Positions 37,605-42,362 of a stretch of DNA of 64,000 nucleotides are shown here, piece by piece. Source of the DNA: Erythrobacteraceae bacterium CFH 75059 (GTDB taxonomy: Bacteria > Pseudomonadota > Alphaproteobacteria > Sphingomonadales > Sphingomonadaceae); the NCBI GenBank assembly GCA_004331795.1, contig SJSR01000001.1:434001-498000 (forward strand), read 5' to 3'. The translations under genes were made by a program, and so were the position numbers. The notes beneath the pieces were generated by a model. It made no database searches, was not told the DNA's origin, and saw only the letters and a list, made by a program, of their open reading frames with translations. Each line of letters begins with the position of its first letter. The stretch's first letter is position 1.

Positions 37605-37769
37605 CAGTCCTCGCTCCCCCCGCCGCTCGCCATCGGCGAACCGCAGCCGCCAAGGAGCGGTGTTGTTGAAGCTTGCCCCGCCGGTGTCAAGCCGCTCGCG
37701 CCCGAGCGAAAGCAACGGTTTGGTCCCGGAGACGGAACCGAGTGGGCGTCGCTGACATTTGACCGAGGC

Positions 37770-39041
37770 ATGAACCGCGCTCACACACCGTCCGCACACA
37801 AGAGCCGGCGCGGCGGTCCGGAAGGCGCAAGCGAGAACGCCGAGGCCGGCGACCTCGTCGAGACTGTCCTCGGGTCCCACCCCTTCGCTGGTGCTCCGGT
37901 GCTGCGTGCCAGCGCCTGCGAAGGGCTGCAGCACTGGCGCGAAACGGGCGGTTTCCAGGTGGTTGCCATTCCGGCGCATCAGGAAGAGGATTACATCCCC
38001 GCCGCGCTCGACGCCCTCGCGCACGCCGCGAAGGACGCGTCACGGCCGCCGCTGGTGGTGGTGGTGGTGAACAACAGCGAGGACGGAACCTGGCCGCAAA
38101 GCCGCAAGCACCTGCAGCGTTCCGGCCTTCCGCATCTCGTTCTCGACATCGTCCTTGCCGACGGGCAGGCGCATGTGGGGTTCGCCCGGCGACTGGCCAT
38201 GGATCTTGCGGCGCGGATCGCTCCGGCGGGGATGATCCTCAGCACGGACGCAGACAGCCAGGTCGATCCGGGATGGCTGATCGCGGCCAACACCGCTCTG
38301 AACGATGCGGCGCTGGCTTGCGGCACCATCCGCGTCGACCCGCGCGAGCTTGCCGCTCTTCCCCCCACCGTTCTCGCCAGCGGGGAGGCCGAGGCAGAAC
38401 TCGAAGGCGCGCTCGACCGGCTGTGGCGGCGGATCACCGGCATCACCGCGCGGGGTTTCGCCAACAAGGGGTCCGGTGCAAACCTCGTCATCCGGGCACG
38501 GGATTACCACGCCGTCGGCGGCCTTCCCGTCACGCCCGTCGGCGAAGACCGTGCCCTCCATGCCGCGGTGGAGCGTGCGGGACTGGCCATCCGGCACGCC
38601 GCAGAGCTGATCGTCACCACCAGTTGCCGGACGGCCTGCCGCGCTCCGGGCGGAATGGCGGACTGCCTGGCGACACGGTCGGTCGAGGCGGACCCGCCGC
38701 TCGACGCCGAGCTCATGCCCGCCGCCACCCTGCTGCGCCGGGCGCTGGTGACACGCGCGCTGCTTCACGGCGATGCCCGCTTGCAGGCGCGGTTGACCCC
38801 GCTGCTCGGCCTGTCGGAGGCGAGCTGGCGCGCTCTGGCTGCGGGGCCGTCGCCGCTGGCAGCGGCGCGGTCTTCGGGCGCGACGTGCCTTGCTGCCCGA
38901 CGCCTGCACATGACGGAGGGCTGGCGCGAGGCGCGCCTTGCCCGCTCGTGGTGGGACGCGCTCGGCATGGGGATCGACCCGGTCGCACTGCTCGGCCAGG
39001 CGGGCGACGGCGCCACGCCCGCGGCGGCGGCGTGTGGCTGA
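37770..39041 (+). CDS. Family 2 glycosyltransferase (first gene of an uncharacterised block)
   Basis: A 423-residue protein with a GT-A fold starting at about residue 63 (FQVVAIPAHQEEDYIP), VVVVVNNSEDGTW, the metal-binding DAD at 160-162 in STDADSQVDPGWL, and a GED/R acceptor-site motif PVGEDRAL at about 256-263. There are no membrane helices or signal peptide, so it is cytosolic. The C-terminal 120 residues are of unknown type. It overlaps the acyl-CoA dehydrogenase gene by 8 bp and heads the block that also holds a PIG-L deacetylase and a NodS-like methyltransferase. Donor and acceptor are unknown. Confidence 0.85.
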   Translation: MNRAHTPSAHKSRRGGPEGASENAEAGDLVETVLGSHPFAGAPVLRASACEGLQHWRETGGFQVVAIPAHQEEDYIPAALDALAHAAKDASRPPLVVVVVNNSEDGTWPQSRKHLQRSGLPHLVLDIVLADGQAHVGFARRLAMDLAARIAPAGMILSTDADSQVDPGWLIAANTALNDAALACGTIRVDPRELAALPPTVLASGEAEAELEGALDRLWRRITGITARGFANKGSGANLVIRARDYHAVGGLPVTPVGEDRALHAAVERAGLAIRHAAELIVTTSCRTACRAPGGMADCLATRSVEADPPLDAELMPAATLLRRALVTRALLHGDARLQARLTPLLGLSEASWRALAAGPSPLAAARSSGATCLAARRLHMTEGWREARLARSWWDALGMGIDPVALLGQAGDGATPAAAACG

Positions 39042-40107
39042 AGCGGACTCCGTCCGGCCCGAATGGCACGAGGCGCTGCGGCGCCGCGCGGGCGAGCGCG
39101 ACGCGTCGCTGGCGTCGGTGCGACGGGATCTGACGATCCTTGCCGAAGGCGGGCTGGCCACAGCGCCACTGCCGGAGGCGGCCGGAGGTCAAGGCTGGTC
39201 CGATGGGCCGCAGGCGGTCGCGCAGCTGATGGCGGTGTTGCGGCAGCTTGGCGGCATCGACCTGTCGCTGGCGCGTCTTTTCGAAGGGCACGTCAACGCG
39301 ATCAAGCTGATCGGACGCTACGGCGCGGCCGCGGAGGCGTCCCTCGTCTGGGACGCTGTGCGCGCGGGCCAGTGGACGGGCGTGTGGGGCGCCGACGACA
39401 ACCCCGCCGTGACCTTCGACGGGAGGCTGCTGCACGGCCGCAAGCGCTTTGCCTCCGGACTCGGGCTCGTGTCGCTGGTCGTCGTCATCGTCAGCGAGGG
39501 GGATGCGCCGCTGATGGTTCTGGCGCGGGCCGACGACGAACACCGCGCCAGCCTCGCGAGCTGGAATGTCGCCGGCATGGAAGCCAGCCGATCCGGCACA
39601 TACGATTTCTCCGGCGTTCCCGGCCGCCCGTTCGGGCAGCCCGGCGACTACCTCGTGGAGCCGGCGTTCGAAGGCGGGGTGTGGCGGTATTGCGCCGCGC
39701 ATCTGGGCGCAGCGGAGGCGCTGCGCGATGCGGCGGCCTTGCATGTGCAGCAAAAGGGCGCGGCACCGACGGCGGACGCCGACCGCCTCGTCGAGACGGC
39801 GCTCGCGTGCGAGACGGCGCGGCTGTGGATCGAGGCGGCGGCGCGCCGGGTTGAAGCCGCGCCGCGCGGCGACACGGGCGCGGCGGCTCTGGCGCTGCTG
39901 TGCCGCGAGGTGACCGAGCGCGCCTGCGTGGAGGTCATGCGCCAGGTCGACCGCACTGTCGGAACGGCAGGTCACGCGCGCGGCTGCGTCTTCGACCGCA
40001 TGCGCCGCGACCTTGGTCTGTTCCTCCGGCAGGCCGATCTCGACGGCAAATGGCGGCGCGCGGCCGACCGGCTGGCCGAGCGGGGCTGGTCGGCGGAGGC
40101 GCTGTGA
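39034..40107 (+). CDS. Divergent acyl-CoA dehydrogenase-like flavoprotein
   Basis: A 357-residue protein resembling acyl-CoA dehydrogenases: an N-terminal helical domain (EGGLATAPLPEAAGGQGW), a central beta domain (TGVWGADDNPAVTFDG, GRKRFASGLGLVS), and a C-terminal helical bundle. It is slightly shorter than typical (about 380 aa), and I do not see the usual catalytic Glu context or the conserved C-terminal Arg/Gly signature. It may therefore be an oxidase, hydroxylase-like or non-catalytic member. GTG start at 39034, overlapping the glycosyltransferase gene; it overlaps the PIG-L gene by 4 bp. Confidence 0.78.
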   Translation: MAEADSVRPEWHEALRRRAGERDASLASVRRDLTILAEGGLATAPLPEAAGGQGWSDGPQAVAQLMAVLRQLGGIDLSLARLFEGHVNAIKLIGRYGAAAEASLVWDAVRAGQWTGVWGADDNPAVTFDGRLLHGRKRFASGLGLVSLVVVIVSEGDAPLMVLARADDEHRASLASWNVAGMEASRSGTYDFSGVPGRPFGQPGDYLVEPAFEGGVWRYCAAHLGAAEALRDAAALHVQQKGAAPTADADRLVETALACETARLWIEAAARRVEAAPRGDTGAAALALLCREVTERACVEVMRQVDRTVGTAGHARGCVFDRMRRDLGLFLRQADLDGKWRRAADRLAERGWSAEAL

Positions 40108-40841
40108 TCCCCGACCGCCCCGAAGGCGCCCTTCTCGACGCGGTGGCCGCGGCGCCGGCGGCGGACGTCGACGCACTCGCTCCGGGACCGGTGCTGCTGC
40201 TCTCGCCCCATCCCGATGACGAGGTTCTCGGCGCGGGACTGGCGATGGACGCGGCGCTGGGCGCGGGCCGCCCCGTTCTCGTCCTGCTGGTGACGGACGG
40301 TGCCGCATCCCACCCCGGCTCGCGCACCCACCCTCCGCAAGCTGTTCGCGCACTGCGTCGCGCAGAGTTCCGCCAGGCGCTGGCAGAACTGGGCGGAGGC
40401 GGCGCACAGCACGACACGCTCGAGTTCGCCGACAGCACCCTGACGGTCGACTCCGCCGTGCTGATAGCGAACCGGATCACCGAACGGATCGGGTCTTTTC
40501 GTCCGGCGGTCATCTGGACGACATGGTCAGGCGATCCGCACTGCGACCACGAGGCGACCGCTTCGGCGGCGGCGCTTGTGGGTTCGCGGCTCGGTGTTCC
40601 CGTCTGGGAGTACGCGGTCTGGGGACGGTTCGGGGCAAGGCCGGTTCCCCCGCGCCACCGGCTTTGCCGCTTCCTTCACCCGGACGGCCTGCCCCGCAAA
40701 CAGCGTGCAGCACACGCCTACCGGTCGCAGTTCACGGCGCTCATCCGCGATGACCCTGACGGCTTCCGCATGCCATCTGCGCTTCTGGCGCATTTCCTCA
40801 GCGCACCGGAAGTCTTCATCGGCCCGGCTGCACGGGCGTGA
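40104..40841 (+). CDS. PIG-L family deacetylase
   Basis: A 245-residue zinc hydrolase of the LmbE/PIG-L type, which removes acetyl groups from N-acetylglucosaminyl compounds. The zinc site motif PHPDDE lies at residues 35-40, with the third ligand in GDPHCDHEAT at about 142-151, and VLLVTDGAASHPGS in between. No membrane segment. GTG start at 40104, overlapping the preceding gene (GTGA); the methyltransferase start overlaps its stop in the same way. In the block it would deacetylate the product of the glycosyltransferase. Confidence 0.9.
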   Translation: MIPDRPEGALLDAVAAAPAADVDALAPGPVLLLSPHPDDEVLGAGLAMDAALGAGRPVLVLLVTDGAASHPGSRTHPPQAVRALRRAEFRQALAELGGGGAQHDTLEFADSTLTVDSAVLIANRITERIGSFRPAVIWTTWSGDPHCDHEATASAAALVGSRLGVPVWEYAVWGRFGARPVPPRHRLCRFLHPDGLPRKQRAAHAYRSQFTALIRDDPDGFRMPSALLAHFLSAPEVFIGPAARA

Positions 40842-41413
40842 GCAACAGCGCGCCCTCCCGCCGCGCGGTGTTCGATGCGCTGTATGCCGGCGGCGCCGAT
40901 CCGTGGCAGGTGACATCCAGCGCCTACGAGCAGGAGAAATACGCCGAGACGCTGAACGCGCTGCCGGATCGCCGCTTCGCCCACGGGCTGGAGATCGGCT
41001 GCGGGATTGGCGTGCTGAGCGCCCGGCTGCTGGAGCGCTGTGGATCCCTGACGGCCATCGACGTCTCGCCGGAAGCCACCGCGCGGGCGCGGGTCCGCCT
41101 CGGCGGAGCGGCGCGAGTCCTCACCGGCGAGGTGCCCGGCGACTGGCCGGCGGGCAGCTACGACCTCGTCGTCCTGTCGGAGATCCTCTATTTCCTCGAC
41201 GCCGGCGAGGTGGAGACCGCAGCGCGGCTGACCGCGCGCGATCTCCAGCCGGGCGGCTGCTGCCTGCTGGTGAACTGGACCGGACCCAACGAATGCGCGC
41301 TCGACGGCGACGAGGCCGCGGAGCTTTTCCTCGCCGCCTTCACCCGCACGCGCCCCGGCGCGCGTCATGGCACGCGCCACGAGCGGTACCGGATCGACCG
41401 GCTGCTCGCATGA
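40838..41413 (+). CDS. NodS-like class I SAM-dependent methyltransferase
   Basis: A 191-residue methyltransferase resembling NodS, the Nod-factor N-methyltransferase. ADPWQVTSSAYEQEKYAETL matches the NodS N-terminal signature DPW..S.YE..KY, followed by SAM motif I LEIGCGIGVLS (51-61), AIDVSPEA, and LVVLSEILYFLD. GTG start at 40838, overlapping the PIG-L stop. In NodB/NodS logic the enzyme would methylate the amine exposed by the deacetylase; that order here is inference from gene context. Confidence 0.87.
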   Translation: MSNSAPSRRAVFDALYAGGADPWQVTSSAYEQEKYAETLNALPDRRFAHGLEIGCGIGVLSARLLERCGSLTAIDVSPEATARARVRLGGAARVLTGEVPGDWPAGSYDLVVLSEILYFLDAGEVETAARLTARDLQPGGCCLLVNWTGPNECALDGDEAAELFLAAFTRTRPGARHGTRHERYRIDRLLA

Positions 41414-41483: not shown

Positions 41484-42362
41484 ATGACGACGCTGCGCAT
41501 TGCTCTCGAATGGTTTCTCAACCCCGATCACCTTCCGCTGCTCGCCGCGCGCGACCTGCTGCGCGATCAGGGGATCGACCTCGACCTCGTCGTTCCCGAC
41601 GATCACTACGACGGCTTCGACGCACTGGCGCGCGGCGAGGTCGATGCGGTCGTCAACGAACCGCTCCATCTTGTCGAGCGGCGCGAGATCGCGCTCGTCT
41701 CCCATGGCTGCTTCTTCGTCACACAGGGCGGCGTCTTGATGCACCGGGCGGCGCTGGAGCGGCTTGCGCAAGGCCAGCCGGTGCGGATTGCATCACCCGT
41801 GTCGACGCCCACGACGGACCAGCTGTGCCGCGACATCCTTGCCGGCTGGCTGCGCAGCACCCGGCAGACGAAATCATTGCCGGAGGTCGCGATCCAGCCT
41901 GCCGGCTTCAACCACGTCGACAATCTCGCCGCTGGGTTTGACGGCGCGTGGCTGGCGTTCGGCAACGTCGAGGGCGTGGCGGCGCGGGTTCGCGGGCTCG
42001 ACACGCAGCTTGTCACCACCGCCGAGGCCGGCATCCCGCAGTTTTCCGCACTCGAGCTGATCGGTCGTCGCGACGCTGACACGCAGCAGGCGGCGGCGAT
42101 CGCTGCTCTTGTCGCCGCTCTCGACACCGCCATCCCCGCGCTGTGCGCGGCGCCGGAGCGGGCGAGGGCGCTGTGGTATGCGTGCAGCGGCGATGCGCCG
42201 AGCGCCGAAGGCGACGCCATCGTCGCGGCCACGCTTCCCTGCTTCATCGCTCCTGTCGTGCCCCGCCGTGACCGCTGGCAGCCGATGTGGGCCTATCTGC
42301 ACGCGCATGGAGGCGATGTGGTGGAGGAAGAACGGTTCGCCGCCATGTTCCCGACCGGTTGA
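41484..42362 (+). CDS. THI5/NMT1-like substrate-binding protein without signal peptide
   Basis: A 292-residue protein of the periplasmic-binding-protein fold, THI5/NMT1 type: it starts MTTLRIALEWFLNPDHLPLL, then VVPDDHYDGFDALARGEVDAVVNEP and GVLMHRAALE. No signal peptide or lipobox precedes the homology, so it is predicted cytosolic, and no ABC permease or ATPase is adjacent. Bacterial relatives bind thiamine precursors or other aromatic ligands; the yeast member makes the pyrimidine moiety itself. It starts 70 bp after the methyltransferase and ends 18 bp from the convergent helicase. Ligand unknown. Confidence 0.75.
   Translation: MTTLRIALEWFLNPDHLPLLAARDLLRDQGIDLDLVVPDDHYDGFDALARGEVDAVVNEPLHLVERREIALVSHGCFFVTQGGVLMHRAALERLAQGQPVRIASPVSTPTTDQLCRDILAGWLRSTRQTKSLPEVAIQPAGFNHVDNLAAGFDGAWLAFGNVEGVAARVRGLDTQLVTTAEAGIPQFSALELIGRRDADTQQAAAIAALVAALDTAIPALCAAPERARALWYACSGDAPSAEGDAIVAATLPCFIAPVVPRRDRWQPMWAYLHAHGGDVVEEERFAAMFPTG

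Follow-up and report, generated by a model that had tools for sequence, protein, structure and literature searches.

Introduction

In Nod factor synthesis NodC serves as the GT2 glycosyltransferase, NodB as the N-deacetylase and NodS as the methyltransferase, while the mycothiol and bacillithiol pathways start with a glycosyltransferase and a PIG-L deacetylase. The nitrososynthases DnmZ and KijD3 act on amino sugars. We have analysed a stretch of 64,000 nucleotides from Erythrobacteraceae bacterium CFH 75059 (GenBank assembly GCA_004331795.1, contig SJSR01000001.1, positions 434,001 to 498,000), referred to as the window, in which four overlapping genes encode a GT2 glycosyltransferase, a protein with the predicted fold of an acyl-CoA dehydrogenase (ACAD), a PIG-L family N-deacetylase and a NodS-family S-adenosylmethionine (SAM) methyltransferase (MT). 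An original prediction, made from the letters of this DNA, had proposed that these genes act together in a glycoconjugate pathway. We find that they are a real and widespread module which recurs across phyla, and chance is rejected as the reason for their association. Whether the four genes constitute one short cytosolic pathway for an N-methylated amino-sugar glycoside, serving general-stress or oxidative/desiccation survival, is in our judgement an even call, and it is the explanation that we prefer. The strongest clue to the role comes from relatives, in which stress genes adjoin the module, a clue which is invisible in the window.

Conservation and spread of the four-gene module

In the window the module occupies the forward strand, beginning with the GT2 gene (37770..39041, 423 residues, putative ATG start), followed by three genes with putative GTG starts which encode the ACAD-fold flavoenzyme homologue (39034..40107, 357 residues), the PIG-L (LmbE) family N-deacetylase (40104..40841, 245 residues) and the MT (40838..41413, 191 residues). 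The open reading frames (ORFs) were re-read and the overlaps described earlier, 8 bp between the GT2 and ACAD genes and 4 bp (GTGA) at both the ACAD/PIG-L and the PIG-L/MT junctions, were confirmed together with the three GTG starts, all starts being predicted.

Gene order was compared in 66 module loci from the window's class, other genomes of its phylum, Acinetobacter, Deinococcus and Nostoc. One locus (L098, on the same contig as L030) was dropped, and the 66 include neither L049 and L055, where other core genes were not found next to the ACAD gene, nor the later additions L108-L112. The order ACAD-PIGL-MT is kept in at least 55 of the 66 loci, a lower bound because one query, a 419-residue ORF from L017, covers both PIG-L and MT and causes some MT genes to be labelled PIGL (for example in L079 and L082). 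The position of GT2 varies, being upstream, downstream or convergent: the window's order GT2-ACAD-PIGL-MT is observed in 25 loci, ACAD-PIGL-MT-GT2 in 13 and the same order with an extra match in three, while GT2 is convergent in five and not within reach in six. Neighbour clusters, which are free of the L017 artefact, contain ACAD in 65, MT in 62, PIGL in 61 and GT2 in 52 of the 66 loci, the clusters missing those GT2 genes, the window's among them, that lie inside long merged ORFs. Divergence is correlated between pairs of the four proteins, with r of 0.54-0.78 across 46-55 loci, a level reached by 0 of 999 permutations and to which host ancestry contributes. Gene order in relatives, on which the original prediction had staked its claim, is thus not random, and the kept order, the co-occurrence across phyla and the correlated divergence bear out the view that the genes act together. 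The four genes behave as one conserved unit. An extra PIG-L-labelled match was also seen behind GT2 or MT in L073, L074, L077 and L078, where the query may be a chimera and the match shows no HPDD-type motif.

With the window's ACAD protein as query, 18 loci were recovered (Acuticoccus, Qipengyuania, Citromicrobium, Amorphus, Palleronia, Fulvimarina and others), PIG-L and MT adjoining ACAD in all 18 and GT2 in 16, the two lacking GT2 (L034 and L042) being located at the ends of contigs. A profile built from 18 ACAD rows was run against 398 genomes from the phylum and matched 39 of them with an E value no higher than 1e-15; in 31 of the 39 two or more core genes adjoin one another, and the other eight carry an ACAD-family gene devoid of core neighbours. 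Among 59 genomes of the window's family a PIG-L match occurs in 15 and the module in eight, the window's included, and the only other genome of its genus gave no match. Searching 190 genomes of the class with a single sequence returned six matches, three of which are clearly the module (the window's own genome, G012 and G033). Distribution of the module is patchy.

Plasmid-borne ACAD-PIGL-MT sets are found in Bradyrhizobium, Roseomonas, Sulfitobacter, Komagataeibacter, Acinetobacter, Sphingobium, Novosphingobium, Paracoccus, Jiella, Pandoraea and the actinomycete Kitasatospora, mostly with a nearby glycosyltransferase (GT) listed; none is listed adjoining the sets of Roseomonas, Pandoraea and Kitasatospora. 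All four genes are present in Nostoc, Deinococcus radiodurans carries ACAD and PIG-L with MT ∼3 kb further on, and ACAD is observed without other module genes in a Methylobacterium and on a second Deinococcus plasmid. The co-occurrence anticipated for alphaproteobacteria was therefore found, but its spread reaches far outside that class.

Several features of individual loci were also observed. On the Kitasatospora plasmid (L108) ACAD-PIGL-MT is followed by a ferritin-like gene, with a gene of the spore photoproduct lyase family nearby. An ACAD-like domain is fused behind an N-terminal part of ∼420 residues on the Deinococcus radiodurans plasmid (L047, 8543-10879) and in L055 (8516-11026); the N-terminal part of the L047 fusion gave no match in Pfam (E 0.01) or among PDB sequences, and the fusion gene of L055 is followed by genes for a glycosyltransferase and a UDP-galactopyranose mutase. 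Two distant hosts have a BLUF photoreceptor gene close to the module, at 3691-4122 of L046 and, in the passages drawn on from PMC9020721, in Acinetobacter nosocomialis.

Stress-related neighbours of the module in relatives

A catalase gene lies within 9.5 kb of the module in 21 of the 66 loci and in none of 16 control loci (Fisher P 0.008). The catalase is of the KatE (heme) type in 13 of these loci and belongs to the unrelated Mn-catalase family in the eight others, and merging of near copies leaves 20 of 60 loci with a catalase neighbour. In whole genomes a catalase within 10 kb is observed in nine of the 39 (10 loci), compared with 0.42 expected (Poisson P 8e-10); the nine genomes represent five host families, and P is 8e-5 if each family is counted once. 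The catalase numbers per genome behind the expectation omit heme-family matches under about 120 bits and two Mn fragments of G218, and the count for G296 is one too high, which raises the expectation only. Catalase immediately precedes GT2 in L036, L038 and L039, and it heads the whole run on a Novosphingobium P6W plasmid, where catalase, three GTs, ACAD, PIG-L, MT and a further GT are closely packed on one strand.

Additional neighbours are a Zn-alcohol dehydrogenase (16/66 module loci, 1/16 controls), a Crp/Fnr regulator (10/66 and 1/16) and the families DUF892 and DUF421 (3/66 and 4/66, respectively, with 0/16 controls at the cut-off used; six and eight by clustering). Genes of protectant-sugar synthesis accompany the module as well: OtsB homologues, of trehalose synthesis, in five loci, GlgX/GH77-type enzymes in five, four of them near copies, and sucrose-phosphate synthase/phosphatase in L056 and L070, with a homologue in L066. 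Ku and LigD are encoded nearby in the Bradyrhizobium locus. Upstream of GT2 or ACAD, 10 of the 45 loci from the window's class carry an EcfG-type motif, compared with none of the 21 others. Against the 10 observed, 1.2 to 4.7 would be expected (P 4e-7 to 0.02) according to the number of upstream windows counted; another scan with different bounds detected the motif in six of 38 loci, one with PIG-L only. In the passages drawn on from a study of Sphingomonas melonis, the EcfG regulon includes catalases, Ku, a Zn-alcohol dehydrogenase, trehalose genes and a glycosyltransferase operon (PMC6599016), which is the same gene company as that of the module in relatives. Because catalase, protectant-sugar genes and EcfG-type motifs occur near the module in relatives, the module is read as a stress-protection pathway, a role which the window's copy would share by analogy.

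The deacetylase, methyltransferase and glycosyltransferase

The deacetylase scores 81.3 bits against the PIG-L family of Pfam (PF02585, cut-off 28.2). H36, D38, D39 and E40 of its HPDDE motif and H146, D148 and H149 of its HxDH motif are invariant in 17 aligned rows, and P37 is kept in all but one, which has A. The alignment excludes the row of L037, which contains an in-frame stop; apart from this one stop the L037 gene (10942-11697) is intact, and it is either a pseudogene or subject to a sequencing error. The top-scoring solved relatives are PH0499 (68.6 bits), presumably a diacetylchitobiose deacetylase, TT1542 and a protein named diacetylchitobiose deacetylase (66.7 bits), BshB1 and MshB ranking lower. 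Equivalog status was not reached, scores against BshB1, BshB2 and Mca being 37, 34.3 and 19.5 bits with cut-offs of 182.5, 195.25 and 277.15, respectively.

The MT scores 64.7 bits against the NodS family (PF05401, cut-off 24), and D21-P22-W23 and E31 do not vary among 17 aligned rows and have counterparts in NodS. Its closest solved relative is PDB 4isc, which has no assigned function (150 bits), followed by NodS (97.6 bits). Thus, the earlier description of this protein as NodS-like holds for family membership and the N-terminal motifs but does not extend to the NodS equivalog NF041650, for which the score is far below the cut-off (72.4 versus 300 bits). More generally, none of the four proteins reached an NCBIfam cut-off in the matches listed, which for the MT comprise the best 25 of 26 families. 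The intact motifs of the PIG-L and NodS-family proteins fit de-N-acetylation, then N-methylation, of an amino sugar, in agreement with the chemistry of deacetylation and methylation initially proposed from the sequence.

The GT2 protein matches Glycos_transf_2 of Pfam (32.8 bits, cut-off 23.3), and D160-A-D162 and E259-D260 are invariant in 15 aligned rows, from which L038, where an open start exists further on, was left out. The true GT2 start could lie downstream of the ATG, because the conserved region begins near residue 60. A compact model with a GT-A fold is predicted. The donor could not be read from structure, as the fold neighbours use UDP-GlcNAc (N-acetylglucosamine), UDP-glucose, GDP-fucose and others. 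The highest 19-residue Kyte-Doolittle means are 1.08 for GT2, 2.00 for ACAD, 1.57 for PIG-L and 1.25 for MT, the ACAD peak (from residue 145) corresponding to beta strands in the predicted model. These values and the compact GT2 and ACAD models are consistent with the expectation that all four proteins are cytosolic.

The ACAD-fold protein

The ACAD protein falls under both Pfam cut-offs (19.2 versus 22.9 and 16.6 versus 22.4 bits), while a Deinococcus relative exceeds the Pfam cut-off. An AlphaFold model of the window's protein is compact, with a predicted local distance difference test score (pLDDT) of 89.5, and superimposes on several acyl-CoA dehydrogenases with Z about 35 (34-36) and a root mean square deviation of 2.4-2.6 over 333-341 residues, indicating that the predicted structure has the acyl-CoA dehydrogenase fold. 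The fold does not discriminate dehydrogenase from monooxygenase, as the structural Z values tie (34-36). In a Foldseek search with the model the top row is annotated as a putative acyl-CoA dehydrogenase; flavin monooxygenases and the nitrososynthase DnmZ come next, and KijD3 is also matched. The best solved sequence match of the ACAD profile is DszC, with 75.6 bits over positions 11-221 of 371, and acyl-CoA dehydrogenases reach up to 55 bits across most of the length.

The alignment combined 16 module proteins with six each of ACADs and DszC-type proteins drawn from the fetched loci. At the position of the catalytic Glu, Gln is present in all 16 module proteins and Glu in all six ACADs. In the window this position is occupied by Q333, which is invariant in 18 rows, and 64 of 65 relatives contain the motif D-L-x-x-[FY]-x-[RC]-Q, the remaining one having RQ in an altered motif. 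The 16 module proteins share with the DszC type a loop that is one residue shorter, and the C-terminal HDP present in six of six DszC-type proteins is found in none of them, RQA, RQS or similar residues occurring there. A conserved EGG was noted by eye near the place in helix G where dehydrogenases of the isovaleryl-CoA type have an alternative Glu, in an alignment into which no isovaleryl-CoA dehydrogenase-type protein was knowingly introduced. Combined, Gln in place of Glu, the shorter loop and the missing HDP suggest that this protein is probably not an acyl-CoA dehydrogenase, as originally annotated, and that it looks like a third group. An ACAD-fold protein without the usual catalytic residue of its family is labelled acyl-CoA dehydrogenase in the annotated plasmid records examined.

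Discussion

The explanation that we prefer is a pathway in which GT2 would transfer an N-acetylhexosamine, most likely GlcNAc, to an acceptor, the PIG-L enzyme would strip the acetyl group from the sugar, the NodS-like enzyme would methylate the freed amine and the ACAD-fold flavoenzyme would oxidise this or a linked compound, yielding a product used in general-stress or oxidative/desiccation survival. We infer the sugar, the acceptor, the order of the steps, the flavoenzyme reaction and the share of the window's copy in the stress role. It is a long shot that the flavoenzyme N-oxygenates the N-methylated amine; the product would then be a sugar glycoside of the N-methyl-hydroxylamine, nitrone or nitroso type, serving next to the catalases as a natural radical trap and thereby as a second arm, of small-molecule type, in peroxide defence. 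The company that this often plasmid-borne module has in relatives, with two unrelated catalase families and with trehalose and sucrose synthesis, would point to an undescribed stress metabolite common to several phyla. About 40% of EcfG-dependent genes of S. melonis have no assigned function in the passages drawn on (PMC6599016), and for such genes the module offers a concrete metabolite hypothesis.

Several observations weigh against this pathway. The 66 loci, collected by ACAD or PIG-L similarity and by choice of fetched sequences, are an uneven sample, and the 16 controls, generic ACAD and PIG-L loci, are a small set. No catalase is nearby in 45 of the 66 loci, eight of the 66 being shorter than 15 kb, and the EcfG enrichment is weaker (P 0.02) when four upstream windows per locus are counted. 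None of the stress neighbours is found in the immediate flanks of the module in the window, and its genome gave no heme or Mn catalase match. An EcfG-like site, GGAAC-N17-CATT, upstream of GT2 (37734..37759, + strand) has one mismatch to the EcfG-type motif and is at chance level, with 12 matches in the window and 10.5 expected; it is not claimed as a promoter, and EcfG control of the window's operon was rejected. GlcNAc is a putative substrate for every enzyme, the GT2 fold neighbours taking many donors. PIG-L was not matched by BLAST in L058, L059, L070 and L081, and three additional GTs occur in several loci; given both, the product may vary between loci. As a candidate alternative deacetylase in these four loci, L070 contains a histone-deacetylase-family gene near the module, on the other strand behind a transporter, and none was found among the genes scanned in L058 (four), L059 (one) and L081 (two).

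The flanks of the module in the window, which is part of a 2.26 Mb genome in 17 contigs, consist of a major facilitator superfamily transporter gene on the opposite strand, an NMT1/THI5-like protein gene (41484-42362, 70 bp downstream) and a TRCF-type helicase gene. The NMT1-like gene was rejected as a module member, tblastn giving no match in 34 other loci, many of which are only 2-4 kb long.

The main rival, because of the longer gene set in some relatives, is a cell-surface glycan, the genes adding or modifying a de-N-acetylated, N-methylated sugar on exopolysaccharide or lipopolysaccharide under stress. Five loci (L054, L061, L062, L101 and L102) share the seven-gene order GT4-GT2-GT28-ACAD-PIGL-MT-GTA, a similar set is found on the Novosphingobium P6W plasmid, and S. 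melonis EcfG activates overlapping glycosyltransferase genes, the last labelled exopolysaccharide biosynthesis, whose identity with the module is not shown in the passages drawn on (PMC6599016). However, among the identified neighbour clusters of at least five loci, other clusters being unassigned, DUF421/YetF is the sole membrane protein and no flippase, polymerase or lipid-carrier transferase occurs, and the folds predicted for GT2 and ACAD are compact and of soluble type. We regard the surface glycan as possible but doubtful.

It is unlikely that the ACAD-fold protein acts as a genuine dehydrogenase on an acyl-type intermediate, giving a product with an unsaturated acyl group. The tied structural matches, the first Foldseek row and the profile matches of 55 bits would allow it, but Gln occupies the base position, the local spacing resembles the DszC-type group, and no acyltransferase, carrier protein or electron transfer flavoprotein was detected by Pfam in the five proteins scanned. 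An amino-sugar-based redox buffer resembling mycothiol or bacillithiol is improbable: the pairing of a glycosyltransferase with a PIG-L deacetylase, with which both of those pathways start, catalase neighbours in relatives and the weak PIG-L similarity to BshB1, BshB2 and Mca are in its favour, whereas the BshB and Mca cut-offs are missed by far, no cysteine ligase is present in the block or among identified recurrent neighbours, and methylation would change the amine that receives cysteine. That the enzymes belong to unrelated pathways and share only an operon is scarcely credible. The four are of different classes and we know of no pathway employing them all, which would favour this reading, but recurrence in the window's class, its phylum, Acinetobacter, Deinococcus and Nostoc despite shifted GT2 position, ACAD-PIGL-MT in Pandoraea and Kitasatospora and correlated divergence argue against it, and the conserved order already contradicts it.

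Outside subscription journals and preprints, the literature searched gave no described product or function for the gene set, although older work under other gene names could escape such a search. The set is drawn once, in the bluf65 neighbourhood of A. nosocomialis, as DUF2171, acyl-CoA dehydrogenase, GlcNAc-PI de-N-acetylase, methyltransferase and glycosyltransferase, the genes appearing as neighbours only, with no function or name in the passages drawn on (PMC9020721), in line with the original view that no product is defined. The same order is present in A. johnsonii.

Like Nod factor synthesis, the block combines a GT2 with an N-deacetylase and a methyltransferase of the NodS family, but its deacetylase is PIG-L rather than NodB type, its GT2 model is soluble, a flavoenzyme is added, there is no acyltransferase and the MT is far under the NodS equivalog cut-off. 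Neither the NodA acyltransferase nor the NodB-type deacetylase family was matched when the four proteins and the product of the following gene were scanned with Pfam. With mycothiol and bacillithiol synthesis (MshB, BshB) the block shares a PIG-L deacetylase accompanied by a glycosyltransferase, from which it differs in having GT2 and not GT4, no cysteine ligase, and a methyltransferase and flavoenzyme in addition, and in missing the BshB and Mca cut-offs. The flavin monooxygenases DszC and TdsC resemble the module protein in the absence of the ACAD-type Glu, DszC being its best solved sequence match, but the module protein lacks HDP and no flavin reductase is among the identified recurrent neighbours. 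With the nitrososynthases DnmZ and KijD3, the predicted model of the ACAD protein shares its fold.

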